A stretch of 47,244 bases of DNA from Rhodospirillales bacterium (GCA_018666775.1 JABIXC010000012.1:1-47244); one strand, 5' to 3'. Counted from the stretch's first letter, positions 24,959 to 47,117 are shown. Notes: a model not told the origin generated them from the sequence alone. Made by a program: numbers and translations.

Positions 24959-26201
24959 CCAACAAAATGCGTTCAGGCGCTTCGAGGCAATCTTTCACCC
25001 GGCAAAGGAAGGTAACGGCTTCGCGGCCATCGACCATGCGATGATCATAGGAAAGGGCCAAATTCATCATCGGGCGGATCACAACCTCATCATTAATGGC
25101 AATGGGCCGTTTGACGATGGAGTGCATGCCTAAAATTCCCGATTGCGGGGGGTTCAGAATGGGCGTCGATAAAAGTGATCCGTAAATGCCGCCATTGGTG
25201 ATGGTAAACGTGCCCCCGGTCAGGTCATCCATGCCAAGCTTGCCACCTCGGGCACGCACAGCAAGATCAATAATTTCAGCCTCAATTTCGCCAAAACTTT
25301 TGAGATCCGCATCGCGCAGCACAGGCACCATCAGGCCCTGTTCGGTGCCCACGGCAACGCCGATATCGTAATGGTTTTTGTAAACGATTTCGTCGCCATC
25401 AATTTGTGCATTCACTTCCGGAATTTCTTTCAAGGCAACCACGCACGCCTTCACAAAGAAAGACATGAAGCCAAGCTTTACCCCATGTTTCTTCGTGAAC
25501 GAATCCTGGACCTGAGAGCGGGTTTTCATAATCACGCTCATGTCTGCTTCGTTGAACGTGGTCAGCATGGCCGCCGTGTTCTGGGCCTCTTTCAGGCGCT
25601 CTGCGATGCGTTTGCGCAGACGGGTCATTTTTACCCGTTCTTCACGGGGGCCAGCAGAGGCGGCAACAGAGGCGACAGCTTCGCCTGATGGTGCGGGTGC
25701 GGGTGCGGGTACTGGTTCTGCACTCCCATCCATCGCCGCTAAAACATCGCCTTTGGTCAACCGTCCATCCTTGCCTGTGGCTGGGATGGTTGCGGGATCA
25801 AGGCCATTGTCATCCACCAGTTTGCGCACAGCTGGTGACAGCCCCATGTCTGCATTGGCAGATGCTGCTTTGGGCGCGGGGGCTGGTGCGGGGGCTGGTT
25901 CAGGTGCCTTTTCAGCTTTTGGTTCTTCTTTTGGTTCTGGTGCTGCTTTTTTGGCTGGCGCGCCGCCTTCTTCAATGCTGCCCAAAACAGCACCGACATC
26001 AACTTCGGCACCGGCTTCATGAATAATTTCCGATAACACCCCGGCACTTTTTGCATTCACTTCAACCGAAACCTTGTCGGTTTCCAGTTCCACCAGCGGT
26101 TCATCCACGGCAATCGCATCACCGGGTGCTTTGAACCATTTGGCAACGGTTGCCTCGGTCACGGATTCACCCAATGCAGGAACGACAATTTGCTGTGTCA
26201 T
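24951..26201 (-). CDS. sucB: 2-oxoglutarate dehydrogenase E2, dihydrolipoyl succinyltransferase
   Basis: E2 transfers the succinyl group to CoA and forms the core of the complex. The single lipoyl domain (residues 1-80) has its lipoylation site at K43 in [10 protein letters not shown] Pro/Ala/Glu-rich linker follows (about 80-115), then the E3-binding domain ([17 protein letters not shown]), a second flexible linker and the catalytic domain. The catalytic motif is H387 and D391 in DHRMVDG. Length 416 is normal. The ATG directly abuts the sucA stop, so translation is probably coupled. Confidence 0.98.
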
Positions 26202-29200
26202 TTATTTCACCTTTGCCTTTGCTTTTTTTCCCGCTTTTTTTCCCACTTTTTTTGGAGTCTTGCTGGCTGTTTTGGCCGAGCGAGCACGGGCACGCGTTTT
26301 TTCGGTGTTTTCCGGATGCCGTGCACCCGCACGGGCGGCACTGGCACCGGCATCGCCGGTAATGGTCAGGGCGCAATCGATCAAGGCCGCTTGTTCGGCC
26401 AGATGGCGTTTCATAAGCCCGGTCGCGGTCGATGCCGATTCAACCCGGCCCGCGTAACCCGGGCGAGTGGCTGTGACATCAAGGGTCGAGAGGATATCTT
26501 CGATGCGCCGATCAACAAATGTCCACGCCCCCATATTCCAGGGTTCTTCCTGACACCACACGACATCGGCATTGGGATAGCGCATAAATTCAACGGACAA
26601 GGTGCGCACGGGGAAGGGATAAATTTGTTCCACGCGAACAATGGCAATATCATCAATGCCCCGTTCCGCGCGTTCGGCCAGAATGTCGTAATAGATTTTG
26701 CCGGTACACAAAACAATGCGGCGCACTTTGTCATCGGCCACCAGTTTTTCCGTTTCACCCAACACCCGGTGGAACGTGGTTCCGGTTTCCATGTCGCTGA
26801 GATCAGAAACGCACAATTTATGACGCAGCAATGATTTCGGCGTCATGATAATCAGGGGTTTTCGGAAATTGCGGCGCACCTGGCGGCGCAAGACATGATA
26901 ATAATTGGCTGGCGTGGTGCAATTGACCACCTGCCAGTTGTCTTCGGCACAAAGTTGCAGATAACGCTCCAACCGCGCCGATGAATGTTCTGGGCCCTGG
27001 CCTTCATAGCCATGGGGCAACAGCATCACCAGCCCCGACATGCGCAGCCATTTGCTTTCGCCCGAACACAGGAACTGATCGATGATCACCTGTGCGCCGT
27101 TTGCAAAATCGCCAAACTGCGCTTCCCACAGAACAAGGGAATTGGGATCGGTAATGGAATAGCCATATTCAAACCCCAGAACCGATGCTTCAGAGAGTGG
27201 GCTATCGATGACTTCAAACGTGGCCTGATCTTCGTCCAGATTGGCCAGCGGAATAAAGCGTTCTTCGGTATTTTGGTCAACCAGAACGGAATGGCGTTGC
27301 GAAAAAGTGCCGCGCCCGGAATCCTGGCCCGAAAGACGCACCGATGTGCCTTCCAAAACCAGCGTCCCAAAGGCCAATGCCTCTGCCGTTGACCAATCAA
27401 CGCCCTTGCCGGTTTCAAACATTTTGGCCTTGGCCTTGAGCTGGCGCTCAATACGGGAATGAACCGCAAGGGTGCCCGGTACGCGCACCAGCCCTTTTGC
27501 GACCTTTTTCAGAAAGCTCGGCTGAACGGCGGTTTGACCACGGCGGTCTTCGCCCGATGCAATTTCGAATCCCGTCCATGCGCCTTCCAGCCAATCGGCC
27601 TTGTTTGGCTTGAACGAGGTAGATGCTTCAAAATCGACTTCCAGTTCTGCACGGAAAGCCGCAATTTCGGCACTGGATTCTTCTTTTGTCATAACCCCGC
27701 TTGCGGCAAGGTGCGCTGCATACAGTTCAACCACCGGGGGATGCTCGGCGATGCGCTGATACATCAAGGGCTGGGTAAAGGAAGGCTCATCCCCTTCGTT
27801 ATGGCCAAAACGGCGATAACAGAACATGTCGATGACCACGTCTTTTTTAAATTTTGCCCGGTATTCCGTAGCAATTCTGGCAACATGCACTACGGCTTCG
27901 GGATCATCGCCATTCACGTGCAGGGTTGGTGCCTGAATGGCCTTTGCCATGTCTGACGGGTAAGGCGAAGACCGGCTGTAATGGGGTGAGGTGGTAAATC
28001 CGATTTGATTGTTAACAATCAAATGCACCGTGCCCCCGGATCGATAGCCTTTAAGATCTGATAGCGTAAAGGTTTCGGCCACCGGGCCTTGGCCCGCAAA
28101 GGATGCATCGCCATGCATCAAAATTCCCATGACCTGTTCGCGTTCAACATCGCCGCGCTGGGCCTGCTTGGCTCGAACCTTCCCTACCACCACCGGGTCC
28201 ACTGCTTCTAAATGCGATGGGTTGGCGGCCAGAGACAAATGTAGCTTACGGCCATCAAATTCCCGGTCTGCAGACGTGCCAAGATGATATTTCACATCGC
28301 CTGATCCCTGCACATCATCGGGATTGGCAGCACTGCCCTGAAATTCGGAAAAGATCGCCCTAAAGGGTTTTCCCATGATATTCGCCAAAACGTTTAGCCG
28401 CCCGCGATGGGGCATGCCAAAGATAATTTCTTCCACACCCAGACGGGACGCCGAATGCATGATTTCCTCCAGGGCCGAAACCATGGCTTCGCCACCATCA
28501 ACGCCAAAGCGTTTGGTGCCGGTGTGTTTAACGTGAAGGAAATGCTCAAATTCCTGAGCCCGAACCAAATGACTGAAAATTTTACGCTTTTCATCGGCGC
28601 TGAAATCCGGCTGGTTTCGCGTACTTTCCACCCGTTCCTGAATCCAGGCTTTTTCATCGGGCGTTTGAATGTGCATGAATTCAACACCGACCTTGCCGCA
28701 ATACGTGGCCCGAACAATCGCCAAAATTTCACGCAAGGTCGCGGTTTCCAAACCCAACACATGATCAATAAATATATCGCGATCATAATCAGCTTCGCTA
28801 AACCCATAGGCTTCGGGGTCCAGTTCGGGATGGGTGCCGTTGTCTTCAATGCCCAAGGGATCAAGATCGGCCATTAAATGCCCGCGCACGCGATAGGCAC
28901 GGATCAGCATCAAGGCCCGAATGGTATCAAGGGTGGCGTGCCTTACGGCCTCTGCATCCAACGCCGGACCAGAACCAGATGACGGTGACTTTTCCAAAGG
29001 GGCCGACAACTGTTCATCGGGCACATCCCGTGTGGTGCGCGGCGCCCAGCTGGCACCTTCGATTTCTTTCAGGGCTTCGGTGGCGTTTTCTTCAAGGCCC
29101 GAAAAATAGGCCTGCCAATCGGGATCAACCGACGAAGAATCCTTCAGATATCGGGCGTAAAGGTTTTCAATGAAGGCCGTGTTAGGCCCTGACAGAAAGC

Positions 29201-29225
29201 TCTGCTGTTCTAGTTTCGATGCCAT
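26202..29225 (-). CDS. sucA: 2-oxoglutarate dehydrogenase E1 with Lys-rich tail
   Basis: E1 decarboxylates 2-oxoglutarate on thiamin diphosphate. The N-terminus (FLSGPNTAFIENLYARYL) is the peripheral-binding segment typical of E1o. Conserved blocks include KRFGVDGGEAMVSALEE, PHRGRLNVLANIMGKP, the ThDP region GDASFAGQGPVAET and LIVNNQIGFTT. The catalytic part ends normally near residue 960. After that come about 44 unusual residues rich in Ala, Arg and Lys, with 11 lysines in the last 23. Length 1007 compares with about 935-990 for relatives. It lies 82 bases after sucD and has a weak ribosome binding site. Confidence 0.98.
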   Translation of the reverse strand: MASKLEQQSFLSGPNTAFIENLYARYLKDSSSVDPDWQAYFSGLEENATEALKEIEGASWAPRTTRDVPDEQLSAPLEKSPSSGSGPALDAEAVRHATLDTIRALMLIRAYRVRGHLMADLDPLGIEDNGTHPELDPEAYGFSEADYDRDIFIDHVLGLETATLREILAIVRATYCGKVGVEFMHIQTPDEKAWIQERVESTRNQPDFSADEKRKIFSHLVRAQEFEHFLHVKHTGTKRFGVDGGEAMVSALEEIMHSASRLGVEEIIFGMPHRGRLNVLANIMGKPFRAIFSEFQGSAANPDDVQGSGDVKYHLGTSADREFDGRKLHLSLAANPSHLEAVDPVVVGKVRAKQAQRGDVEREQVMGILMHGDASFAGQGPVAETFTLSDLKGYRSGGTVHLIVNNQIGFTTSPHYSRSSPYPSDMAKAIQAPTLHVNGDDPEAVVHVARIATEYRAKFKKDVVIDMFCYRRFGHNEGDEPSFTQPLMYQRIAEHPPVVELYAAHLAASGVMTKEESSAEIAAFRAELEVDFEASTSFKPNKADWLEGAWTGFEIASGEDRRGQTAVQPSFLKKVAKGLVRVPGTLAVHSRIERQLKAKAKMFETGKGVDWSTAEALAFGTLVLEGTSVRLSGQDSGRGTFSQRHSVLVDQNTEERFIPLANLDEDQATFEVIDSPLSEASVLGFEYGYSITDPNSLVLWEAQFGDFANGAQVIIDQFLCSGESKWLRMSGLVMLLPHGYEGQGPEHSSARLERYLQLCAEDNWQVVNCTTPANYYHVLRRQVRRNFRKPLIIMTPKSLLRHKLCVSDLSDMETGTTFHRVLGETEKLVADDKVRRIVLCTGKIYYDILAERAERGIDDIAIVRVEQIYPFPVRTLSVEFMRYPNADVVWCQEEPWNMGAWTFVDRRIEDILSTLDVTATRPGYAGRVESASTATGLMKRHLAEQAALIDCALTITGDAGASAARAGARHPENTEKTRARARSAKTASKTPKKVGKKAGKKAKAKVK

Positions 29226-29307
29226 AACGAAGCGGGTTTTATCCGCCCTTATCTGGTTGTTAACCTAAATTTACAGTTAAAAATACCAGCGGAAGCCTAA
29301 CAAAACC

Positions 29308-30183
29308 TTATTTTTTAAAGGCTTGTGCCATTGTGCTGCCAAGGGCGGCGGGCGATTTTGCCACTTTGATCCCAGCCTTTTTCAAGGCTTCGATCTTGTC
29401 CTGAGCACCACCGGTACCACCGGAAATAATAGCCCCCGCATGGCCCATACGCCGACCCGGCGGGGCGGTTTGGCCCGCAATGAAGCCCACAACCGGCTTT
29501 TTCGTCTTTGATGACTTAATAAAGGCCGCTGCCTCTTCTTCTGCAGACCCACCAATTTCACCAATCATGATGATGCCTTTGGTTTCCTTATCTGCCACAA
29601 ACATTTCCAGACATTCGACAAAATCAGTGCCATTGACCGGATCACCACCAATACCAATACAGGTGGTTTGGCCAAGGCCCACTGCCGTCGTTTGCGCAAC
29701 CGCTTCATAAGTAAGGGTGCCAGAGCGTGAAACAATACCGATTTTACCACGGGAATGAATGTGGCCCGGCATGATGCCAATTTTGCATTCACCCGGCGTG
29801 ATAATCCCCGGACAATTGGGGCCGATCAATCGGGTAGGTGAACCTTCAAGGGCACGCTTTACCCGCACCATATCAAGAACAGGAATGCCTTCGGTGATGC
29901 AGATCACCAGAGGAATTTCTGAACCCACGGCTTCTAAAATGGCATCAGCGGCGAATGGCGGGGGCACATAGATAACAGATGCATTTGCACCGGTTTTTTC
30001 CACAGCCTCGGCAACTGTATTGTAAACCGGAAGATCAAGATGGCGCGTGCCACCCTTGCCCGGTGTTACCCCACCAACCATTTTGGTGCCGTACGCAATG
30101 GCTTGCTCGGAATGAAAGGTGCCTTGGGACCCTGTGAACCCCTGGCAAATAACTTTGGTATTTTTGTCGACCAGAACTGCCAT
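29308..30183 (-). CDS. sucD: Succinyl-CoA synthetase alpha subunit
   Basis: The alpha subunit binds CoA and carries the phosphohistidine. The CoA-binding Rossmann domain begins near residue 5, with [15 protein letters not shown]. The active-site histidine is H248 in [13 protein letters not shown]. Length 291 is normal. The ATG is directly at the sucC stop (one-base overlap), as usual for the pair. A weak six-base AAGCCT/AGGCTT dyad spans its stop, not a convincing terminator, so transcription probably continues to sucA. Confidence 0.98.
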
Positions 30184-31352
30184 TAGGCTGTCTCTTTTAC
30201 TTGGGCCACGATCTTCTTCGCAGCATCATCTAGGTTATCGGCGGAAACAATGGAGAGGCCAGATTCGTTCAGAATTTTCTTGCCCAATTCCACATTGGTC
30301 CCTTCAAGACGCACCACCAGGGGAACATGCAGGCTAACCTCGCGTGCGGCACTAACCACCCCTTCGGCGATGACGTCGCAGCGCATGATACCGCCAAAAA
30401 TATTGACCAGAATGCCCTCAACGTTGGGATCAGACAGGATCAGCTTAAATGCCGTGGTGACCCTTTCCCGTGTAGCGCCACCCCCAACATCCAGAAAGTT
30501 GGCCGGTGATCCACCGTAAAGTTTAATGATGTCCATGGTTGCCATGGCAAGGCCCGCACCATTGACCATGCAGCCAATATTGCCATCAAGCTTGATGTAA
30601 TTGAGATCATGCTTTGATGCTTCCAGCTCTGCTGGATCTTCTTCGGCCTCATCGCGCAATTCAGCGACGTTGCCATGGCGGAAGAGTGCGTTGTCATCGA
30701 AATTCATTTTTGCATCCAGCGCGATAACATCGCCCGAACCCGTCACCACCAGCGGGTTGATTTCCGCCAGCGAACAATCAAGCCCCATAAAGGCTTCATA
30801 AAGCGCCATCATAAATTTGACACCATTGCGAATTTGGTCACCTTCAAGGCCAAGCCCAAAGGCCAGCTCGCGCGCATGATAGGGCTGCATACCGGTGGCT
30901 GGATCAATGGCCACCTTGATAATTTTTTCAGGGGTTTTTGCGGCGACCTCTTCGATTTCCATGCCGCCTTCAGTGGACGCCATAACCGTCACCCGAGACG
31001 TGACCCGGTCGATCAAAACACCAAGATAAAGTTCGCGGGCAATGTCGCAGCCTTCTTCGACATAGATGCGTTTGACTTCTTTTCCTTCCGGCCCGGTCTG
31101 GGGGGTAACAAGCTGCATGCCGAGGATATCTTTGGCCGTCGATGCGACTTCCTTGATGGATTTAACCACCTTGACGCCACCGCCCTTGCCACGGCCACCG
31201 GCGTGAATTTGGGCTTTGACGACCCAAACAGACCCTTTGAGGTCGCGGGCGACTTTTTCCGCTTCTTTGACGGTATAGGCAACGCCTCCACGGGGGACTG
31301 CAACGCCGTATCCGGCCAGCAGGCCCTTGGCCTGATATTCATGGATGTTCAT
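30183..31352 (-). CDS. sucC: Succinyl-CoA synthetase beta subunit
   Basis: The beta subunit has an N-terminal ATP-grasp domain (start [22 protein letters not shown]; lysine-rich [15 protein letters not shown]) and a C-terminal phosphate/flavodoxin-like domain with [15 protein letters not shown]. Length 389 is normal. It converts succinyl-CoA to succinate with NDP phosphorylation. The region upstream to the mdh terminator is 123 bases and is AT-rich; the sucC promoter is probably there, with TTGCTT-N16-TAAGTT as the best but weak candidate. A GGAAG lies 13 bases before the ATG. Confidence 0.98.
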
Positions 31353-31475
31353 AACGTATTGCTACTTCCAAATATTTTGAAACAGGCAGCAAAATCACCA
31401 ACCTGGAAAGGATTTATGGTTAACTTAACACCCGAAACCCTTTAAGCAACCGTTAAACCGGGGCATTTTTGGTCC

Positions 31476-31512
31476 AAAAAAAGCCGCAAAACCCCTTTTC
31501 AAGCAAAGGGGT
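31476..31512 (-). terminator. Intrinsic terminator after mdh
   Basis: On the minus strand ACCCCTTT and AAAGGGGT (31505-31512 with 31491-31498) form a perfect eight-base-pair stem with a six-base loop. TTT follows at once, and a run of seven T residues lies slightly further (31476-31482). It begins 8 bases after the mdh stop and separates mdh from the sucCD-sucAB-lpdA transcript at least partly. Confidence 0.75.
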
Positions 31513-31519
31513 ATGCTAA

Positions 31520-32575
<1,056 letters not shown>

Positions 32576-36558: not shown

Positions 36559-37650
36559 TTACTGGGTGCCGGGAACGGGAATTTCAAGCTTTTGCCCGCG
36601 GCCCATGTCGGTGCATTTGTCATAGACCCATTTTGCAATGGCAAGGTCCGATGCGGCAGTGCCGTTGTTGTTGGCATGATAGGTGATTTCTTCATCCGAT
36701 GTGCGGCCCGGATGGGTGCCTGCAATGACTTCACCCAGTTCCACGATCTTGTCCCAAGTAATGACACCGGCCTCAATGGGCTCAATCAAGCCGGCTTGTT
36801 GATCCTGAACCACAGATTCGCGCCAATTGGTGACAATAAATGATGCCCGTTCACAGGTGCGGTCATCGTTTTCACGCCGCCCCGATTCCAGCCAGCCACC
36901 CTTGACCAGCGCATTGTTCGATCCCACCACGGTAACCACATGCTGGCCCGGTTCTAACCAGTCCCCATCAAAAACGGGCACGTTGGAATTGGTCGCACAA
37001 ATCACAATATCAGAATCCTTACAAACCAACTGGGGGTCTGACAGGTCTTCGAATTCCGCATCCACCAAGGGGCCCAGTTTTTCAATAAACGCCTTGCGGT
37101 TAGCTGGATCGCGGGAATAAATCTTAAAGCGCTTCACTTTTCTTTCTTCCGCTGCCGCCAGAACCTTGTGCAAGGCCTGGCCGCCCGTGCCATAGACCCC
37201 GACAATTTCGGAATCTTTGCGCGCCATATGGCGGATGCCCACCCCGGTGGTGGCCGCCGTGCGCAATGCCATGACAGAAGAAAAGCCCACCCGCTTGTCG
37301 GTAATTTCACCAACCATAATTGATTTCAGATGCGCCGTTTCCGCATCCCACAACAAATAGACCGGATGTTCGCGATAAGGATAAACCTGATTGTTCGGGT
37401 CATGCGAAACAGATTCCGCCCGGGTCAACGACCCGATCACGCCAAGGGAATCGATGCCGCCGGGAAAATTGGAAACACGCACCCCTTGGGGGGAATGCAC
37501 GCGCCTGCGCGGGGCATTGATAATGGGATATTTGGCCGCATCGGCGTAACCCTGATCGACCAAATCAATGGCATCTTTCATTGTGATGACATCTTTGACG
37601 TCACTGGGCCCTAAAAACAGGACAGAATTCATATTCGATGTATCACTCAT
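36559..37650 (-). CDS. Ornithine cyclodeaminase / mu-crystallin family protein
   Basis: Members of this family use NAD(P) to reduce or deaminate imines and amino acids; true ornithine cyclodeaminases make proline from ornithine. The NAD-binding motif GVYGTGGQA lies at residues 151-159, followed by an R in IYSRDP. The R-T-A-A motif is present at residues 130-133, but the substrate-binding Lys usually found in G-V-K before it reads G-V-I here, and extra residues lie between the usual L-T and R-T-A-A. A different substrate is therefore likely. AAGGGGAAG precedes the ATG. It probably forms a transcript with the DMT exporter and zapE. Confidence 0.8.
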   Translation of the reverse strand: MSDTSNMNSVLFLGPSDVKDVITMKDAIDLVDQGYADAAKYPIINAPRRRVHSPQGVRVSNFPGGIDSLGVIGSLTRAESVSHDPNNQVYPYREHPVYLLWDAETAHLKSIMVGEITDKRVGFSSVMALRTAATTGVGIRHMARKDSEIVGVYGTGGQALHKVLAAAEERKVKRFKIYSRDPANRKAFIEKLGPLVDAEFEDLSDPQLVCKDSDIVICATNSNVPVFDGDWLEPGQHVVTVVGSNNALVKGGWLESGRRENDDRTCERASFIVTNWRESVVQDQQAGLIEPIEAGVITWDKIVELGEVIAGTHPGRTSDEEITYHANNNGTAASDLAIAKWVYDKCTDMGRGQKLEIPVPGTQ

Positions 37651-37798
37651 AACAACTTCCCCTTAAACAACCTGACGTGAACCCCTTATGATCCATCTGT
37701 TTTAAGGATTTAGGGCACATTCCGCAAGCAAGCCAATATCGTGTTGTTGCCAGCCACCGGAGCGATTATCCTGAATATCAAAATTCAAGGGGGGAATT

Positions 37799-38596
37799 AT
37801 GCATAAATTCATCACCATGACGGCATTTTCGGGACTTCTCGTCTCAGCAATGTTGGCCACAACGCCCACACTTGCCCAATCATCGCGATCGGTGATCAAC
37901 CCCACCGCATTGCAGAAAAAAATCGCTGTCATCTTGAAAATGCCCCATCGCAGCGCCAAAAACCGGCGCCGTGATCGCAACCGTGACCCTGTCCGCGCCA
38001 TGGAATTTTGCCGCCTGAAAGACAATATGAAGGTCCTTGAATGGGGACCGGGCCGGGGCTGGTACACCGAAATTCTGGGCGTGCTTTTAAAAGACCGGGG
38101 GCAGCTTTATGCGTCCAACCGCGCCGTATCTTTAAAGCGCCTGAACAAATTGCTAAAATCGCCCTTGATGCGTGCCGTTAAAAAACTGCCCGTCAAAGTG
38201 ATCCGCCATCCCATCACCCATGACATCACCATTGATACGCTGGATTTTGGCATGCGCGATGCCGATATGGCGCTGAACATTCGTGAATATCACAATCTGG
38301 ATATGAAGACCGTCGATAAATTTAACGCAGCCACCTATCAGGCCCTAAAACCCGGCGGCTATTACTGCATCATTGACCACACCCGGCGTCATATGGGACC
38401 AGACACCAATGAAAATCGCCGCCGCATGGACCCGGTCAAGATCATCAAACAGGTGCAAGACGCCGGTTTCAAATTCGTGGACTACACCAACCTGTTCCTG
38501 CGCCTAGATGATGAATTGCGGTTCGAAGTGGGCCGCAAAACCGTGCGCGGCAACACCGACCGCTTCACCCTTTTATTTCAAAAACCACAAAGCTAA
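37799..38596 (+). CDS. Exported class I SAM-dependent methyltransferase-like protein
   Basis: Residues 1-27 form a clear signal peptide ending T-L-A-Q. The mature protein has an AdoMet-type motif EWGPGRGWYTEIL at residues 81-93, later DADMALNIREYHNL and ALKPGGYYCIIDHTRR, typical of class I methyltransferases of the COG4798 type. The ribosome binding site AAGGGGGG lies just before the ATG. A methyltransferase fold outside the cytoplasm is odd because S-adenosylmethionine is cytoplasmic. The linker region around residues 50-66 is rich in arginine. It is probably cotranscribed with the aldolase gene 22 bases downstream and divergent from the mu-crystallin gene; TTGTTG-N17-TATCCT at 37744-37772 is a weak promoter candidate. 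Confidence 0.8.
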   Translation: MHKFITMTAFSGLLVSAMLATTPTLAQSSRSVINPTALQKKIAVILKMPHRSAKNRRRDRNRDPVRAMEFCRLKDNMKVLEWGPGRGWYTEILGVLLKDRGQLYASNRAVSLKRLNKLLKSPLMRAVKKLPVKVIRHPITHDITIDTLDFGMRDADMALNIREYHNLDMKTVDKFNAATYQALKPGGYYCIIDHTRRHMGPDTNENRRRMDPVKIIKQVQDAGFKFVDYTNLFLRLDDELRFEVGRKTVRGNTDRFTLLFQKPQS

Positions 38597-38618
38597 TTCA
38601 CGGCGTTAAGGAAAAACC

Positions 38619-39428
38619 ATGGCAGATACAGACGACAGCAAGATCACCGGGCTTTTGGGCCGCGACTTTAAACGCAGTTTGGCGGCGGGAAATTTAAATC
38701 TGTGCATGACGGTGCGCTATTCCCGCACCATCGAAATCGCCCAGGTGACCCGATTGGCCGGTTATGATGCGTTGTATTGTGATCTTGAACACAGCGCGCT
38801 GACCATTGATCAGGTGTCGCAAATTTCTATGGCCGCCGCCATGAGCGGGATTGTGCCGCTGGTCCGGGTCCCCTGTCATGGGCATCATTATATCAGCCGG
38901 GTTCTGGACGGCGGTGCCCATGGGGTGGTTGTGCCCCATGTGGATACCGTCGATGAAGCCAAAGCCTGCGTTGATGCGTGCCGCTATCCGCCCATGGGCG
39001 GGCGGTCATTGACCGGGCTTGGCCCATTGGCCGGGCAATCGGTGGGCACCACCGATGCGTATCGGTTGATCAATGAAAACACCGTTTTAATTGTCATGCT
39101 GGAATCGCCAGAAGCGATCAAAAATGCCGATGCCATCGCCGCCGTAGAAGGTGTTGATATGTTGCTGATTGGCACCAATGATCTGTGCATGGAAATGGGC
39201 ATTCCCGGCCAGCTGGATTCTGATCAGGTGCGTGATGCCTACCAAACCACGGCGGATGCCTGCAAAAAACACGGTAAGGCTTTGGGCATTGGCGGCATTA
39301 AAGAAGGCCCGATGCTGGATGCCATTTACGCCATGGGTGGGCGGTTTATCATGGGCCGGGTCGATGGCGTGCTGATGTCCATGGCCGCCACCACAGAGGT
39401 CAAGACCCTGCGCAAGTTAGGGTCTTAG
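38619..39428 (+). CDS. HpcH/HpaI family aldolase
   Basis: Metal-dependent class II aldolases of this family cleave or form C-C bonds using pyruvate-like substrates. All key residues line up with E. coli HpaI at a constant offset of 13: H58 (H45), R83 (R70), E162 (E149) and D188 (D175), within DLEHS, LVRVP, MLESPEA and GTNDL. The protein is thus expected to be active. Length 269 is normal. TAAGGA lies before the ATG. The physiological substrate is unknown; the neighbours suggest a product of ring degradation. The stop codon overlaps that of the converging cupin gene. Confidence 0.9.
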   Translation: MADTDDSKITGLLGRDFKRSLAAGNLNLCMTVRYSRTIEIAQVTRLAGYDALYCDLEHSALTIDQVSQISMAAAMSGIVPLVRVPCHGHHYISRVLDGGAHGVVVPHVDTVDEAKACVDACRYPPMGGRSLTGLGPLAGQSVGTTDAYRLINENTVLIVMLESPEAIKNADAIAAVEGVDMLLIGTNDLCMEMGIPGQLDSDQVRDAYQTTADACKKHGKALGIGGIKEGPMLDAIYAMGGRFIMGRVDGVLMSMAATTEVKTLRKLGS

Positions 39429-39898
39429 CCTTTAAGTTTTTCGTGCTGGTGTTTTTCAGGTGCTTCGCCGCCCATCAAGACAAACGCCAACCGGCACGTG
39501 TCATCGCTGCGGTTTTCCCAGCCATGCCAGGTGGCGCGCTGCACCAAAATGTCGCCGGCACTTAGGGCCACTTCTTCATCATCGTCTAGATGCATGACGC
39601 AATTGCCCTCTAACACGATGCAATAATCCAGCGTGTCGGTGCGGTGCATGAAGGCATCCTTTTTGGGGGCCAGTTCCAGAATGCGCAAGATGGTCCCTCT
39701 GGGCTGGGGGGCCAGCCCCATTTCCTTCATGGCCGGATCATCATCGCCGGACACTGCGGCTGGGGAATCTTCGGTCGCCCACATGACGCAGCCCGAGTGT
39801 CCCGATGGCATCACTTTGACATTGCTCATCAACCCATCGCGTTCAACGATCGCCTTGCCGTCCTTATCATGGCCGGTCACAACCCTGCGGATATCCAT
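39425..39898 (-). CDS. Single-domain cupin protein
   Basis: The 157-residue protein has a cupin core from about residue 65 to 145: RILELAPKK, then MHRTDTLDYCIVLEGNCVMHL (motif 1 with one His), and GDILVQRATWHGWEN (motif 2 His). Similar cupins appear beside aromatic and dicarboxylate degradation genes but usually without a proven reaction. Only two histidines plus acidic residues are candidates for metal binding. AGGAGA lies 7 bases before the ATG. It is the last gene of the Mo-hydroxylase operon, 20 bases after the binding-protein gene, and its stop overlaps the converging aldolase stop (TTAG at 39425-39428). Confidence 0.85.
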   Translation of the reverse strand: MDIRRVVTGHDKDGKAIVERDGLMSNVKVMPSGHSGCVMWATEDSPAAVSGDDDPAMKEMGLAPQPRGTILRILELAPKKDAFMHRTDTLDYCIVLEGNCVMHLDDDEEVALSAGDILVQRATWHGWENRSDDTCRLAFVLMGGEAPEKHQHEKLKG

Positions 39899-39918
39899 GT
39901 CTTATTCTCCTGAAACGA

Positions 39919-40842
39919 TTATATGACTTGATTGTAATAGCTAAGATCAATGTAGCGGGCGTGATCGGTCAGTTTTGGCCCATCGCCATAGCGCGAGCGC
40001 AGATCCAGAACCGTATCAACGCCGTCTGGCAAAATGGCGCCCTTAGGCGTCAGGCCAGAACGCGGGTTTAAAAGGTTTTTCAAAACGCCACCGGCAACGG
40101 CTGGTTTGATGGCGGGCATGTTGCGCAGCAAAATCTCAATGGCTTCATCCTGATTTTCTGGATCAAACACCCAGTCCAGCCCATCAAGATAGCCCCGGAT
40201 GTAGCCCTTTACCGTATCGGCGTTATCTGCGGCCCATGCGCGGCTGGCGGCAAAAGACCCGCCTTGATAACAATCAAACAAATCGGTGCTGGTTTGAAGC
40301 ACGTTAAAGCCCTGGGATTGGGCCATGGCTGTGAAGGGCTGGATGGTCAGGGTGCCCGCGGTCTTGCCTTCGCGCACCGATTCCCATCGCTGTGGGGTGG
40401 CCCCAACGGTGACCATTTCATAATCATCTGATTTAAGCCCGGCGCGCGCCAGCATTTCATACAGCACAAAGGCGAACCCCGTAGACAACGCATCCAATGC
40501 CAAAGATTTACCCTTTAGATCATCAAAGGTTTTTACATCCGGTGCGGTGACCAGCGCCAATTGCACCTGTGATGCCCCCATAAAGGCAAACAGGTCGGGC
40601 GTGCTTTCAGGTTTATAGACCCCTGCATCTTCTTGATAGGCGACCACATTATCAAAGGCGGTGCCCGCAATCTGGAAGGTGCCGTTGATCAGGTTTTCAG
40701 CCTGATAGGCAGAATTTGGCGTGGTCGACAAATTGACAGCAACGCCTGCTTTTTCGAAGAAGCCTTTTTCCTGGGCAGCGAAAATGGGCAGGCTGGGGGC
40801 GCCCGGGAAACAGATCAACTCAATGGCTTTTGTTTCGCTCAC
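39919..40842 (-). CDS. NMT1/THI5-like solute-binding-fold protein without signal peptide
   Basis: The sequence resembles SsuA/NrtA/THI5-type binding proteins: PSLPIFAAQEKGFFEKAGVAVNL, FDDLKGKSLALDALSTGFAFVLYEML and a C-terminal helical part. It begins directly with MSETKAIELICFPG and has no hydrophobic signal segment. The GTG at 40842 has AAGGA 9 bases upstream inside the end of the preceding gene, so this start is well supported and no upstream signal exists. It is probably cytoplasmic. This fold is known in cytoplasmic enzymes such as fungal THI5 and 4,5-dihydroxyphthalate decarboxylase. It is tightly coupled to the molybdenum hydroxylase gene (6-base gap). No ABC permease or ATPase gene is nearby. 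Confidence 0.8.
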   Translation of the reverse strand: MSETKAIELICFPGAPSLPIFAAQEKGFFEKAGVAVNLSTTPNSAYQAENLINGTFQIAGTAFDNVVAYQEDAGVYKPESTPDLFAFMGASQVQLALVTAPDVKTFDDLKGKSLALDALSTGFAFVLYEMLARAGLKSDDYEMVTVGATPQRWESVREGKTAGTLTIQPFTAMAQSQGFNVLQTSTDLFDCYQGGSFAASRAWAADNADTVKGYIRGYLDGLDWVFDPENQDEAIEILLRNMPAIKPAVAGGVLKNLLNPRSGLTPKGAILPDGVDTVLDLRSRYGDGPKLTDHARYIDLSYYNQVI

Positions 40843-40848
40843 GTGAAA

Positions 40849-43233
40849 TTATCCTTGTTTGTGAATTGCGCGCCAAACCGATTGGGGTGTTGCGGGCATT
40901 TCCAGATGGTCAATGTTGTAATCATGAAGTGCGTCAACAATGGCGTTGATGATCACCGCCGGTGCCGGGGTGGTCCCGCCTTCGCCGCCGGCCTTGATGC
41001 CAAGCGGGTTGGTGGGCGAGAGCACTTCGACAATTTCTGTGTTTAAAAAGGGCAGGTTGTTGGATTTCGGCATGCCGTAATCCATGAACGACCCCATCAA
41101 GGGCTGTCCCGTTTGTGGGTCGATGTAACATTGTTCCCACATGGCCTGACCAACGCCCTGGGCAATGCCGCCATGGGTTTGGCCATGAACGATCAAGGGA
41201 TTGATACACCGCCCAACATCATCCACCGCCGAATAGCGCGTGATAACGGTGCCGCCGGTATCTGGGTCCACCTCTATTTCACAAACCGCACAGCCATTGG
41301 GAAACACCTGTTCGTGCATTTCATTGTCCATGACAACGGCCAAGCCATCGGAAAGTTCATCGGGCAATTCCAAAAGGGATGCTTCTTTCGCCAGTTCCAG
41401 AAAGCCAAGGGTCTTGTTGCTATCGGGTGCGCTGAACAGCCCGTCGTTAAAATCGATCTGGTCGGCCGGGACTTTAAACACCAAACCAGCAATAGCCTTG
41501 CCTTTGGTGATCAGTGCCTTACCCGCCATTGACATGACTGTTCCCGCATGGCGCATGGACCGGCCCGAATGGGACCCGCCGCCCAAAGTAACAATATCGG
41601 TATCGCCGATAATGATCTGGATCAAAGACACCGGGACATGCAACAGATCAGAGACCACCTGGGCAAAACTGGTTTCATGGCCCTGCCCGCTGGGCTGGGT
41701 GCCAATCACCACATCGACGCTGCCTTCTGGCTTGATCGTGATCTCTGTGCGTTCTTTTGGGGCGCCGGTGGATGATTCAACATAATTGGCAATGCCTTGA
41801 CCCAATAATTTGCCCCGGGCCTTTGCTTCGTCGCGCCGCGCCTCAAAGCCATCCCAATCGGCGATTTTCATGGCCAAATCCATGTTCACTTCATAGGTGC
41901 CACTGTCATAAAGGGTGTTCATCGGGTTCCGATAAGGGAACACATCCGGGGTCAGGAGGTTCTTGCGCCGTAGTTCAATTTTATCAATGCCCAAATCTTT
42001 GGAAATCAGCTCGATCATGCGTTCAATGACAAAATTAACCTCTGGCCGCCCCGATGACCGATAGGCCTGAGTCGGCATGGTGTTGGTAAACACCCCAAGG
42101 GCGCGCATGGTGGCCACGGGAATGTTGTAGCCCGCCGTGATCAGGGCAGAGCCCTTGGCCAAGGGGGACAACGACACACAGCGCGCGCCGACATTAGAAA
42201 TGTTTGTCGCCCGCATGGCCAAAAAGGTGCCGTCCTTTTTCAGGGCTAATTCAACCCGGCTGACCAGATCGCGGCCCTGATAATCGCTGAGGAAGGCTTC
42301 GGACCGGGTTGCCAGATATTTCACCGGGCGCTTTAATTTTTCAGATGCCCACAGCACCAGACCAAATTCCACATAGATCCGGTTGCGGGTGCCAAAATTG
42401 CCGCCCACGTCATAAGACAACACCCGGATTTTTTCCCGATCAACCCCCAACACCGCGGCCATTTCGCCTTTTTGGCGAACCGCACCACCGCTGCCCGCGT
42501 ACAAGGTATAGCGCCCGGTTTCACAATTATAATCCCCAAGGGCCGCGCGGGGCTCCATGGGCACGCCGGTGACGCGGCCAATGTTAAATTCGCGCTTAAA
42601 AACATGATCGGCGGCATCGAAAGCCAGATCGGTCGCGGCCACATCGCCAAAGGTTGTGTCGACCAGAATATTATCCGTCGCTTCATCCCAAACGCTGGGG
42701 GCACCCGCCTCAATGGCATCTTCGGAATGAAGGACCCATGGCAGTTCTTCGTAATCCACCTCTACCAATTCGGCAGCATCCATGGCCTGGGCCTTGGTTT
42801 CTGCCACCACCATAACCACGGCTTCGCCCACATGGCGGGCACGATCTGTGACCAACAACATATTGGGGCCATCAAAGACCTTCGCCCCACCGGGGCCGGT
42901 CAGCTTCATATCAAACTTTGTCGACGGCACCGGGGAATGGGGAATTGGAACCAACCCATCGGCCAGACAATCCGCACCGGTGTAAACCCCAAGCACCCCG
43001 GGCATGGCCAGTGCTGCATCTTTGTTCACACCCAAAATTTTAGCATGGGGATGGGGGCTGCGCACCATAATGGCATGAACCTGGCCTTCCAGGCTGAAAT
43101 CGTCAGAAAATGCGCCCGCACCGGTCAATAACCGGTGGTCTTCTTTGCGCCGGATCGGCTTGCCGATGGCCCTAAACCCGTCATCTCCAGGGGTTTCAAG
43201 CTCTGTTTCAAATGTGTCAAAATCACCAGACAT
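40849..43233 (-). CDS. Xanthine dehydrogenase family molybdenum-binding subunit
   Basis: Large catalytic subunit of a molybdenum hydroxylase (xanthine dehydrogenase/CoxL superfamily, 794 residues). The N-terminal domain starts IGKPIRRKEDHRLLTGAG. The Mo-cofactor segments include GGNFGTRNR, QPSGQGHETSFAQ and the catalytic glutamate E751 in KAGGEGGTTPA. The substrate-specificity loop reads AYRSSGRPE (about residues 390-398), neither the A-Y-x-C-S-F-R of form I CO dehydrogenase nor the usual A-Y-R-G-A-G-R of form II. The usual FAD and 2Fe-2S subunit genes are absent on both sides. It heads an operon with the binding-protein and cupin genes, divergent from ubiD-like. Confidence 0.92.
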   Translation of the reverse strand: MSGDFDTFETELETPGDDGFRAIGKPIRRKEDHRLLTGAGAFSDDFSLEGQVHAIMVRSPHPHAKILGVNKDAALAMPGVLGVYTGADCLADGLVPIPHSPVPSTKFDMKLTGPGGAKVFDGPNMLLVTDRARHVGEAVVMVVAETKAQAMDAAELVEVDYEELPWVLHSEDAIEAGAPSVWDEATDNILVDTTFGDVAATDLAFDAADHVFKREFNIGRVTGVPMEPRAALGDYNCETGRYTLYAGSGGAVRQKGEMAAVLGVDREKIRVLSYDVGGNFGTRNRIYVEFGLVLWASEKLKRPVKYLATRSEAFLSDYQGRDLVSRVELALKKDGTFLAMRATNISNVGARCVSLSPLAKGSALITAGYNIPVATMRALGVFTNTMPTQAYRSSGRPEVNFVIERMIELISKDLGIDKIELRRKNLLTPDVFPYRNPMNTLYDSGTYEVNMDLAMKIADWDGFEARRDEAKARGKLLGQGIANYVESSTGAPKERTEITIKPEGSVDVVIGTQPSGQGHETSFAQVVSDLLHVPVSLIQIIIGDTDIVTLGGGSHSGRSMRHAGTVMSMAGKALITKGKAIAGLVFKVPADQIDFNDGLFSAPDSNKTLGFLELAKEASLLELPDELSDGLAVVMDNEMHEQVFPNGCAVCEIEVDPDTGGTVITRYSAVDDVGRCINPLIVHGQTHGGIAQGVGQAMWEQCYIDPQTGQPLMGSFMDYGMPKSNNLPFLNTEIVEVLSPTNPLGIKAGGEGGTTPAPAVIINAIVDALHDYNIDHLEMPATPQSVWRAIHKQG

Positions 43234-43295
43234 GGGTATGGATCGCTCCCTATGGACTTCGCCGTCTTAAATACTTAATTTCAGGCACCGAATGA

Positions 43296-43313
43296 TGCGC
43301 AATATGTAGCGCA
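43296..43313. promoter_or_regulatory. Dyad between the divergent Mo-hydroxylase and UbiD genes
   Basis: TGCGC at 43296-43300 and GCGCA at 43309-43313 form an inverted repeat with an eight-base AT-rich centre (AATATGTA). It lies in the 147-base divergent gap, 62 bases from one gene and 67 from the other. The position suits an operator for a regulator controlling both units, but no regulator gene is visible in the window and short dyads arise by chance. Confidence 0.3.
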
Positions 43314-43380
43314 ATCGGGGGCAACTGGAAACCGGCCTGATTACAATTTTTGGGCAAAACAAAAATATATTGGAGAGACC

Positions 43381-45027
43381 ATGGCAAATGCCTTCCCCAA
43401 ACGGGGCTATCGCGACCTGCAAGAACACCTTAAGGCGCTCGATGAAGCCGGACTTTTGGTTACCATTGATGAACCCGTCAACAAGGACACAGAGCTGCAC
43501 CCGCTGGTGCGCTGGCAATATCGTGGCGGCATCCCCGATGCTGAGCGTAAGGCCTTTCTGTTTACCAATGTCACCGACGCGCGGGGGCGCAAATTTGACA
43601 TCCCCGTGGTGGTTGGCGCATTGGCGGGCAATCAGGAAATTTATCGCATTGGCATGAATGTCCCCCTCGAAGAGATTGGCCCAACCTGGGAACGCGCCAT
43701 GAATGCGCCCATTCCCCCCAACGTGGTTGAAGAAGCGCCTTGTCAGGAAACCGTCATCACCGGGGCAGACCTGATTGGCGAAAACAAGGGCCTCGATGCC
43801 CTGCCCGTACCCATTTCAACGCCCGGCTATGACGCCACGGCGTATTTTACGGCCACCAATGTTGTCACCCGCGACCCCGATACCGGGGTCCAGAACATGG
43901 GCACCTATCGCGCCGGCCTGAAGGCATCCAACCGTCTGGCCGTGCGCATGGCATCGCGCACCGGTGGGGCGGGCGGTTATTTGCATTGGGTCAAATATCA
44001 AAAACGCGGCGACAAAACCATGCCTTGCGCCATTGTTGTCGGTGCACCCCCGGCGGTGGCCTATCTTGGCCCGCAAAAATTAAGCCCCGATCGCGATGAA
44101 GCAGAGGTCGCCGGTGCCTTGATGGGCGCACCCATCAACATGGTAAAATGCAAAACCAATGACCTGATGGTGCCGGCCGAAGCCGAAATGGTGATTGAGG
44201 GATTGGTGGACACCGAATATCTGGAACCCGAAGCACCCTTTGGGGAATCCCACGGCCATATCGCGCTGGAAGATTACAACATGATCTTCGAAGTGACCGC
44301 CATCACCATGAAGAAAAAGCCGGTGCTGGTATCAATCATTTCCCAAGTCACCCCCAGCGAATCCAGTGTCATCAAACGGGTGGCCTATGAGCCCATGTTC
44401 CTGGCCCATTTGCGCGACAATCTTGGCATTCGCGGTATTAAACGCGTGTCTCTCCATGAACCGTTGACCAACATCCGCAAGGTGATTTTCATCGTCGTGG
44501 AAAAAGGCATCCCCGCAACAGAAGTCTGGCGGGCACTTTATGGGGCGGCCAGTTTGCGCGCTGATTGCGGAAAATATGTCATTGCGGTTAACGATGACAT
44601 TGACCCAGAAAACGGCGATTCCATCTTCTGGGCGCTGGCGTATCGCGCGAATGTCTTGTCAGACGTGGAAATCCTGCACCACCGGCCACGGGGACATGGC
44701 CCAAAAAGCGGCAATGTCACCCAGGATGGCAGCCTTTTGATCGATGCCACCTCTAAGGGTGATATGCCACCGCTGGCACTACCAAAACGCGAATTCATGG
44801 AAAATGCCAAGGTTCTCTGGGAAAAACTGGGCCTGCCCCCGATCAAGGAACAATCCCCCTGGCACGGATACGACATGGGGGACTGGTTCGAAGCATGGGA
44901 TGAAAATGCCAGAAGAGCGGTCGAGGGGGATTATGCAGAAAATGGCCGAAGAACGGCGCAACGCCGGGTCAAAGACGTCATTCCCGAAACCCCTGTTAGA
45001 ACAGTAGAAGGTGATCCGGAATTGTGA
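43381..45027 (+). CDS. UbiD family decarboxylase
   Basis: UbiD enzymes reversibly decarboxylate aromatic or unsaturated acids with prenylated FMN. The catalytic triad is present with family spacing: R177 in NMGTYRAGLK, E284 and E289 in EPEAPFGESHGH, matching R173, E277 and E282 of Fdc1. N172 is the expected metal/cofactor ligand. An insertion of about seven residues precedes the later His (H202). The C-terminal part is longer than in E. coli UbiD (548 against about 497). GGAGAG lies just before the ATG. Since ubiquinone genes are absent nearby and catabolic genes surround it, a degradative role is inferred. UbiX is not in the window. Confidence 0.92.
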   Translation: MANAFPKRGYRDLQEHLKALDEAGLLVTIDEPVNKDTELHPLVRWQYRGGIPDAERKAFLFTNVTDARGRKFDIPVVVGALAGNQEIYRIGMNVPLEEIGPTWERAMNAPIPPNVVEEAPCQETVITGADLIGENKGLDALPVPISTPGYDATAYFTATNVVTRDPDTGVQNMGTYRAGLKASNRLAVRMASRTGGAGGYLHWVKYQKRGDKTMPCAIVVGAPPAVAYLGPQKLSPDRDEAEVAGALMGAPINMVKCKTNDLMVPAEAEMVIEGLVDTEYLEPEAPFGESHGHIALEDYNMIFEVTAITMKKKPVLVSIISQVTPSESSVIKRVAYEPMFLAHLRDNLGIRGIKRVSLHEPLTNIRKVIFIVVEKGIPATEVWRALYGAASLRADCGKYVIAVNDDIDPENGDSIFWALAYRANVLSDVEILHHRPRGHGPKSGNVTQDGSLLIDATSKGDMPPLALPKREFMENAKVLWEKLGLPPIKEQSPWHGYDMGDWFEAWDENARRAVEGDYAENGRRTAQRRVKDVIPETPVRTVEGDPEL

Positions 45028-45141
45028 CAGTATCTGTCCGAATGCGAATTAAATGCGGGCCGGATACGGACAAAAGGCTATATAAACAGCCGAAATTCGG
45101 GCCGTTTCAGTAAATTGAATTGATAACTGGGAGACTATTTT

Positions 45142-46245
45142 ATGAAAAAACTTTCTATTTTAACCCGGATCGGGGTTGGCATGGCTGCAGGCGCAGCAAT
45201 GCTGGCTGCGACCATGACAGCCACACCTGCACGTGCAGATGCGGTTGCAGATTTCTATAAGGGCCGTGATGTCACCTTCATCGTCGGCTTTTCCGTCGGT
45301 GGATCTTATGGCGCCTATTCCCGTATGCTGGCCCGTCACATGGCCCAGTATATTCCCGGCAAGCCCAACATCCTGACCAAACATCGCCAAGGCGGCGGTG
45401 GCTCACGGGCTGCCAACTATCTCTATAATGTGGCTGCCAAAGACGGCACCATGCTCGGCTTTTTGTCCGATTCTTTAGCCCTTGGGCAGTTGATGTTCCC
45501 AAAAAAGGCCAAATATGACGCCCGCAACATGCGTTATATCGGTCGCCTGACCCCGGTTAACCCGGTCTTGGTGATCAATAAAAATCACAAGGTTAAGACC
45601 ATTGCCGATGCCAAAAAGCATCAAGTGGTCGTCTCTTGTTCTGGACGGTCTTCCCAGAGCTACTTGTATCCCAAGGCCACTTTGGAATTGCTGGGCTATA
45701 ACTTCAAGATGGTTTGCGGCTATGCGGGTTCTGCCCCACAGAGTCTGGCACAATCGCGTGGCGATATTGATGCCCAGTCCAGCGCCTGGATCAGCTGGAA
45801 AATTCGCAAATTTGACCAAATCCAAAACGGCAACCTGATTCCTATCCTCCAGTTTGGTCTGGTACGTGAATTGGATCTGCCCAATCTTCCCCTGCCACAA
45901 GACCTGACAAAAAGCGCCGAAAACAAGAAGATTTTCAAATTCTTGTTCTCTGGTGGTGCCATTGGCCGCACATTGATTGCAGCCCCTGGCGTACCTGCGG
46001 ACCGCGTCAAAGCCTTGCGGGTGGCCTTCAAAAAGACCATGAAGGACCCCAAATTCTTGGCCGAAGCCAAGAAACGCAATGCCCATATCCAGCCTGGTAC
46101 CGGCGAAGAAATGGATAAGATCACGGCAGTGGTTCTGTCCGCTGATAAAGCGCTGGTCAAAATGACCCGCAATGTCGTGAAGGGCTATAAGAAGAACTGT
46201 AAGAAAAATTGTAAGAAAAAGAAAAAGAAGAAAAAGAAAAAATAG
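45142..46245 (+). CDS. Tripartite tricarboxylate transporter (TctC/Bug) binding protein with poly-Lys tail
   Basis: TctC/Bug proteins are periplasmic binding proteins for carboxylates and related compounds. Residues 1-32 are a signal peptide ending A-R-A. The mature part follows family pattern: FYKGRDVTFIVGFSVGG, RMLARHMAQYIPGKPNI and GGGGSRAANYLYNVAAKDG. In the first ligand loop the usual G-Y-D reads S-Y-G, so the common aspartate is missing. The fold ends near residue 345. The last 21 residues contain two K-x-C-K-like blocks (KKNC KKNC) and then ten lysines. Length is 367 against about 325. GGGAG lies 8 bases before the ATG. No TctA or TctB gene is visible. Confidence 0.9.
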   Translation: MKKLSILTRIGVGMAAGAAMLAATMTATPARADAVADFYKGRDVTFIVGFSVGGSYGAYSRMLARHMAQYIPGKPNILTKHRQGGGGSRAANYLYNVAAKDGTMLGFLSDSLALGQLMFPKKAKYDARNMRYIGRLTPVNPVLVINKNHKVKTIADAKKHQVVVSCSGRSSQSYLYPKATLELLGYNFKMVCGYAGSAPQSLAQSRGDIDAQSSAWISWKIRKFDQIQNGNLIPILQFGLVRELDLPNLPLPQDLTKSAENKKIFKFLFSGGAIGRTLIAAPGVPADRVKALRVAFKKTMKDPKFLAEAKKRNAHIQPGTGEEMDKITAVVLSADKALVKMTRNVVKGYKKNCKKNCKKKKKKKKKK

Positions 46246-46273
46246 TCCTGACGTTCCAGGACTTGACGATTAG

Positions 46274-46310
46274 ACGCGCCTGCGGAATATTGCCGCAGGC
46301 GCGTTTTCTT
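46274..46310 (+). terminator. Strong intrinsic terminator after the TctC gene
   Basis: ACGCGCCTGCGG at 46274-46285 pairs perfectly with CCGCAGGCGCGT at 46293-46304 around a seven-base loop, followed by TTTCTTT. This is the best terminator in the window. A second hairpin just upstream (AGTCCTG at 46244-46250 with CAGGACT at 46257-46263) overlaps the stop codon. The class II aldolase gene begins 18 bases after the T-run, so it needs read-through or its own promoter. Confidence 0.9.
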
Positions 46311-46328
46311 TAGAGGGTATATAAAATC

Positions 46329-47117
46329 ATGAGCAACCATTACGACATCGACATCCCATCCATGAAGGACGCGGTCAGCGATGCTGAATGGGAAACCCGA
46401 CTTGATCTGGCAGCCCTTTACCGAGCCGCCGCCCATGCGGGGTTTCAAGATGTCACCCTCAACCATTTGACGGCCCGCGTGCCTGATGCACCGGATCACT
46501 TCCTGATCAAGCCAACAGAGTTGATGTTCGAAGAGGTCACGGCTTCAAGCCTTTTGTGTTTCGATCTGGATGACAGGCCGGTCTACGATCAGGCCCTGAA
46601 CAAAAGCCCCGCATCCTTTAATCTGCACGGCACCCTTTTGAAGGCGCGCACGGACGTGAATTGCATCATGCATCTTCATTCCGATGCAGGCGCTGCCGTA
46701 TCGGCACAGAAAAAAGGGTTTCTGTTTATTTCCCAGGATGCCATGCGGTTTTGGAACAAAATCGCCACCCACACCTATGAAGGGCTGGTGCACGGCGAAG
46801 GCCTGGAAGAATGCAAACAACTGATCGATGATATGGGCGATAAAACCGTCTTGATGCTACACAACCACGGCACATTGGTTGTCGGGCGCACCATCGGCGA
46901 GGCATTTCTGCTCAATCATTTTCTGGAACGCGCCATGACCATCCAAATCGGCGCATTGGCCGGGGGCGGGGAAATCATCCAGCCATCCGATGATGTCTGC
47001 GCCAAAATTGCCGAAGGCTGGATCGAAAATCGACCCAATCCCGGCATCGCGGGTGCGCGCGATTGGAACGCCATCCGTCGCCAGATGGACCGGCTATATC
47101 CAAATTACCGGACCTAA
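46329..47117 (+). CDS. Class II aldolase/adducin family protein
   Basis: The fold is that of zinc-dependent fuculose/ribulose phosphate aldolases. Zinc ligands H115 and H117 (MHLHS) and H180 (LHNHGT) are present. The catalytic glutamate of FucA (in P-S-S-E-W) has no equivalent; here the segment reads SPASFNLH, as in the adducin-like branch. An aldol reaction is therefore uncertain, and decarboxylation or another role is possible. Length 262 is normal. GAGGG lies 12 bases upstream of the ATG. It follows the TctC terminator and converges with a partial gene at the window end with no gap. Confidence 0.85.
   Translation: MSNHYDIDIPSMKDAVSDAEWETRLDLAALYRAAAHAGFQDVTLNHLTARVPDAPDHFLIKPTELMFEEVTASSLLCFDLDDRPVYDQALNKSPASFNLHGTLLKARTDVNCIMHLHSDAGAAVSAQKKGFLFISQDAMRFWNKIATHTYEGLVHGEGLEECKQLIDDMGDKTVLMLHNHGTLVVGRTIGEAFLLNHFLERAMTIQIGALAGGGEIIQPSDDVCAKIAEGWIENRPNPGIAGARDWNAIRRQMDRLYPNYRT

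Follow-up and report, generated by a model that had tools for sequence, protein, structure and literature searches.

A conserved gene cluster pairing a CoxL-like molybdenum hydroxylase with a UbiD-family decarboxylase, probably catabolic, in a Rhodospirillales bacterium and on rhizobial plasmids

Long-lived dissolved organic matter includes aromatic and heteroaromatic acids, and to our knowledge few genes have been tied to the breakdown of these acids. Among described systems, the closest precedent for the cluster reported here is the hmf cluster for 5-hydroxymethylfurfural and 2,5-furandicarboxylate, in which the UbiD-family enzyme HmfF takes a carboxyl group off furandicarboxylate and the molybdenum hydroxylase HmfABC oxidizes the ring in CoA-ester form (PMC12064950). 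In the lumichrome (riboflavin) pathway encoded by the lum cluster, the heterocycle is decarboxylated by a ThDP enzyme and hydroxylated by a xanthine oxidase, a 16-kDa cupin serves as dienedioate hydratase, and a retro-aldolase releases pyruvate (PMC12746152). The window, that is the whole 47,244-nucleotide stretch analysed, corresponds to contig C12 in full, from the 2.4 Mb genome (G000) of a marine-type alphaproteobacterium of the Rhodospirillales, and it carries a gene set that combines enzyme classes of hmf and lum without the CoA ligase of hmf.

The resemblance to hmf is that a UbiD and a molybdenum hydroxylase share a catabolic cluster and that the cofactor supply is of UbiX type. However, the window UbiD is only remotely similar to HmfF (Pelotomaculum; 6h6x/6h6v), its best-scoring solved match at only ~27% identity; neither HmfD (furoyl-CoA synthetase) nor HmfE (2-oxoglutaroyl-CoA hydrolase) is found among the genes at 36559-47117; and the window cluster has instead a cytosolic NMT1-like partner, a cupin, HpcH- and adducin-type aldolases and a TTT-type TctC protein. 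The lum cluster likewise unites a heterocycle decarboxylase, a xanthine-oxidase-type hydroxylase, a small cupin and an aldolase in one pathway, and by analogy suggests roles for the window cupin and aldolase; PMC12746152 makes no mention of a UbiD, and the P450, amidases, and Rieske and extradiol dioxygenases of lum are all absent from the window set. The first-pass annotation had not recognized the pathway. We found no paper in the open-access literature on UbiD together with a molybdenum hydroxylase, CoxL or a tripartite transporter, but the pairing of the two enzyme classes does have a precedent in hmf.

Eight ORFs, called by longest ORF plus tblastn, lie side by side at 37799-47117 in the order methyltransferase (+), HpcH (+), cupin (-), NMT1-like (-), CoxL (-), UbiD (+), TctC (+) and class II aldolase (+), all at the positions claimed earlier, and their family assignments hold. 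CoxL and UbiD diverge from a 147 bp promoter region (43234..43380); a palindromic operator common to the divergent promoters was looked for and not found. The gaps CoxL-NMT1 and NMT1-cupin measure 6 and 20 bp, so these three genes likely form one operon, and UbiD-TctC and TctC-aldolase are separated by 114 and 83 bp. The G+C content of the eight genes (51-57%) is near that of the window (54%) and thus gives no sign of recent foreign insertion. As the contig stops 127 bp past the last gene, the cluster may extend beyond 47244. Upstream, at 23534-32515, lies a central-metabolism block encoding dihydrolipoamide dehydrogenase, a 2-oxoacid dehydrogenase acyltransferase, succinyl-CoA ligase subunits and a malate dehydrogenase family protein.

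The exported methyltransferase (37799..38596, +), which ends 22 bp upstream of HpcH, has the Sec-type leader and SAM-fold-like sequence expected from its first description, with no confident Pfam match (best PCMT, 0.0017). Its membership of the cluster did not stand: because no homologue occurs in any fetched locus, we rejected it as a member and regard it as probably a neighbour outside the system. An ornithine-cyclodeaminase-like gene at 36559-37650 was also rejected, having only unrelated matches of 25-31% near other loci.

The HpcH/HpaI-type metal-dependent aldolase (38619..39428, +; PF03328, 5e-33) retains its catalytic residues H58, R83, E162 and D188 when aligned with E. coli YfaU, as had been claimed. 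The class II aldolase/adducin-family metal enzyme (46329..47117, +; PRK07044), described before as an adducin-like zinc protein, matches Aldolase_II (PF00596, 1e-37) and, above cut-off, NF005451, and its His metal triad H115/H117/H180 is intact in alignment with 3ocr. The cupin is small and single-domain (39425..39898, -; Cupin_2, 6.5e-10), with 3es1 as its closest solved structure (3.5e-29). Homologues of HpcH (68-73%) lie beside or near the cupin in the genomes G004, G008, G009 and G010; homologues of the cupin (68-78%) adjoin NMT1-CoxL in these four and in G007; and the class II aldolase recurs near UbiD in G001 (54%) and G017 (37%).

The CoxL-like molybdenum hydroxylase large subunit (40849..43233, -) contains the domains Ald_Xan_dh_C, MoCoBD_1 (PF02738) and MoCoBD_2 (PF20256), with E-values from 4e-24 to 2e-63, and the Mo-site glutamate E751 (GGEGG). 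It is the only molybdenum hydroxylase subunit in the window cluster, which holds no FeS or FAD partner. The window CoxL could use partner subunits from elsewhere in the genome, where ~14 CoxL-family matches and five CoxS-type genes are found: a CoxM-CoxS-CoxG-CoxL operon lies at C17:25.4-29.7 kb, and its CoxS, the closest of the five, is 63% identical to the rhizobial partner. As this CoxS/CoxM pair (25.4-26.7 kb) stands beside another CoxL and not at the window locus, partner exchange is an assumption.

Next to CoxL is an NMT1/SsuA-type binding-fold protein (39919..40842, -; PF09084 (NMT1), 2.4e-18). It starts without a signal peptide, as do nearly all its homologues, in keeping with the cytoplasmic location assigned to it. 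Its high-confidence predicted model (pLDDT 95) has a solute-binding fold; among solved structures it comes closest to ABC solute-binding proteins and Thi5 of the thiamin pathway, with the desulfinase DszB further down. A DszB- or Thi5-type enzyme was rejected despite the close fold, since no Cys or His is invariant across 20 homologues. Cytosolic enzymes of the solute-binding fold are known, and the NMT1-like protein may accordingly act either as an enzyme or by carrying substrate to CoxL. Wherever CoxL (57-61%) and NMT1 (48-51%) both occur in our class sample (G114, G219, G308 and G385), they adjoin.

The UbiD-family prFMN-dependent decarboxylase (43381..45027, +; PF01977, 8e-51) has the intact R/E/E triad noted earlier (R177/E284/E289), which alignment shows to be invariant in 8 homologues together with the metal/prFMN ligands N172, H202 and E269. 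Among its named relatives, alphaproteobacterial metagenome assemblies predominate, and Burkholderiales and others are more distant. The genome has a single UbiX (C17:471887-472447; 63% identity to rhizobial UbiX), which can supply prFMN; it adjoins genes for a ThDP enzyme, TctC, UbiD and TctA. This second UbiD locus (G000:C17:462000-481900) reads TctA, UbiX, ThDP, TctC, UbiD, TctC, and the UbiX-ThDP adjacency is retained in several family members.

The assignment of the next gene as a TctC-type periplasmic carboxylate-binding protein (45142..46245, +) is weak by Pfam (PF03401, 4e-5, under the cut-off), yet the protein is 49-77% identical to the TctC of relatives at the same locus. All family homologues of at least 49% identity adjoin this cluster's CoxL or UbiD, among 12-120 TctC genes per family genome. 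In gene order, TctC is thus the shared element to which CoxL and UbiD are attached as two enzymes; one subfamily beside either enzyme points to a single substrate class, and this sharing is the best available hint of one. Of a tripartite tricarboxylate transporter, the window holds TctC and no TctA or TctB permease up to the contig end; TctA adjoins the same TctC in G010, and also occurs elsewhere in G000. TctC binding proteins are strongly expanded in the family, with 45 matches in the 2.4 Mb of G000 and up to 120 in relatives. The C-terminus of the window protein (46185-46245) is a lysine run, KKNCKKNCKKKKKKKKKK, from an A-rich tract, either real or an assembly or frameshift artefact.

Searching the family with the window proteins as queries, we found that four sister genomes retain all or part of the order HpcH / cupin-NMT1-CoxL / divergent UbiD-TctC. 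G003 has NMT1-CoxL | UbiD-TctC; G007 has cupin-NMT1-CoxL | UbiD-TctC; G004 has HpcH | cupin-NMT1-CoxL | ThDP-UbiD; and G008 has HpcH | cupin-NMT1-CoxL, with UbiD-TctC 4 kb on and a CoxS gene behind. UbiD is common in the cluster and not obligatory: the otherwise conserved loci of G009 and G010 read cupin-NMT1-CoxL | TctC-TctC with HpcH nearby and lack UbiD. Conversely, G001 and G005 have UbiD-TctC-ThDP, with the class II aldolase added in G001, and no window-type CoxL beside it. Most of the compared genomes are metagenome assemblies whose contigs are short, so little weight attaches to absences close to contig ends.

A fuller version is carried on megaplasmids by Neorhizobium petrolearium (NZ_CP123001), Sinorhizobium fredii, S. 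meliloti LMB1 and Rhizobium jaguaris. In S. fredii NGR234 (plasmid NC_012586), UbiD occupies 198271-199890 and CoxL 200269-202566; N. petrolearium OS53 is another culturable carrier. The N. petrolearium plasmid cluster comprises modABC, CoxM, CoxS, CoxG, NMT1-like and CoxL, and divergent from CoxL follow UbiD, a second CoxL, GntR, UbiX, TctC, a ThDP enzyme and TctA; S. meliloti LMB1 and S. fredii have the same core and R. jaguaris part of it. Shared with the window are the divergent CoxL (63-65%) and UbiD (60-61%), a layout also retained in G003 and G007, the NMT1-like gene adjoining CoxL and, in most, TctC. The rhizobial cluster adds CoxM, CoxS, CoxG, the second CoxL (PYRGAGR), GntR, UbiX, the ThDP enzyme and TctA, and, unlike the window, has neither cupin nor HpcH. 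We found no functional description of it in the open-access literature. The conserved co-occurrence that the first-pass annotation had proposed to look for is therefore found both in sister genomes and on rhizobial plasmids.

In a sample of 80 named UbiD loci, 66 of them at least 8 kb long, a CoxL-family gene lies within 4 kb of UbiD in half of these 66 (33/66) and within 10 kb in 45. By chance, a CoxL within 4 kb would be expected at roughly 7% of loci from the CoxL density of G000, or 11% if 40 copies in 4 Mb are assumed. The loci are interrelated, so that the binomial significance is overstated; judged from gene positions, the linkage is nevertheless real and far above chance. UbiDs with the window-type CoxL belong to at least three separate UbiD lineages, and a quick-method UbiD tree requires four changes for this linkage, and well-supported branches force three of the four.

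The cluster is real and conserved and probably has a catabolic role, and its make-up fits the carboxylic-acid or aromatic catabolism suggested for it before. Because its genes, about six in number, stay linked both in relatives and on plasmids of rhizobia, the set probably degrades a carboxylated aromatic compound by an undescribed route. On balance, we favour a model in which the set acts on a carboxylated (hetero)aromatic acid, one that probably bears at least two carboxyl groups. A TTT-type carrier with the window TctC would bind the acid, UbiD with prFMN would take off a ring carboxyl group, and CoxL with borrowed FeS and FAD subunits would hydroxylate a ring carbon with water as the oxygen donor. 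The cytosolic binding-fold protein would serve CoxL, handing over the substrate or acting on its product, and hydration, retro-aldol cleavage or decarboxylation of the product, in its opened or 2-oxo-acid form, would fall to the cupin, HpcH and adducin-type enzyme. The window set contains no ring-cleaving oxygenase and no CoA ligase.

The absence of UbiD in G009 and G010 and of CoxL in G001 and G005 means that the fixed chain of hydroxylation, decarboxylation and C-C cleavage drawn up at first is not implied. It also bears on a rather unlikely alternative, that CoxL-NMT1-cupin-HpcH with TctC and UbiD-TctC-adducin-type aldolase are two independent modules with one uptake protein, acting on related acids by alternative routes and not sequentially on one compound. 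Each half does stand alone beside the same TctC subfamily in these genomes, and CoxL-NMT1 pairs stand alone in G308, G219, G385 and G114, but the divergent CoxL/UbiD pair is retained in rhizobia, a different bacterial order, and the recurrence of the window CoxL type with UbiDs of several lineages favours joint action.

It is improbable that UbiD works in the carboxylating direction, or that its substrate is a non-aromatic alpha,beta-unsaturated acid, for instance a tricarboxylate resembling aconitate, with the set degrading an aliphatic polycarboxylate. In favour of this reading are the known association of the TctC/TTT family with tricarboxylates, the 2-oxo-acid substrates of HpcH and ThDP enzymes, and the activity of UbiD family members on acrylic acids as well (PMC8379154); against it, molybdenum hydroxylases of this group typically hydroxylate (hetero)aromatic rings, and the best-scoring solved UbiD, weak match though it is, is a furandicarboxylate decarboxylase.

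Still less probable is an incidental neighbourhood of an aldehyde- or CO-oxidizing CoxL and a quinone-biosynthesis UbiD: CO dehydrogenase large chain is indeed the best solved match of CoxL, and glyceraldehyde and CO dehydrogenases its best NCBIfam matches, all below cut-off, but the linkage is far above chance, AYRSSGR replaces the CO dehydrogenase Cys motif, and G000 has ~11 UbiD-family matches, some ten besides that of the window, with its one UbiX beside a different UbiD, on which grounds a ubiquinone-type UbiD was rejected. The window CoxL shares its fold and Mo-site glutamate with aerobic CO dehydrogenase (CoxLMS); at residue 390, the place of the active-site Cys motif, it has neither the Cys of form I nor the AYRGAGR of form II, and CO dehydrogenase identity was rejected on this motif.

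Beyond the favoured model, the cluster ties UbiD enzymes in a concrete, testable way to CoxL-like genes lacking an assigned function. More tentatively, and with some doubt, we propose that coupled prFMN-dependent decarboxylation and molybdenum-dependent ring hydroxylation may constitute a widespread undescribed aerobic pathway, in which CoxL-type enzymes have a new, dedicated partner in the cytosolic protein of solute-binding fold; if true, this would explain many marine and soil CoxL-like genes annotated as CO dehydrogenase. Because culturable rhizobia hold the fuller version, the substrate and the order of steps are within reach of ordinary genetics.

Two further arrangements were seen among the UbiD loci. 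In one UbiD clade, a second CoxL type (SYRGAGR, form-II-like) directly adjoins UbiD, at loci L048, L049, L051, L052, L054, L057 and L087, and the opposite strand often bears another CoxL. In G001, three tandem UbiD genes (L027:5954-11055; 57, 57 and 72% to the window UbiD) are followed by TctC, ThDP and class II aldolase genes.
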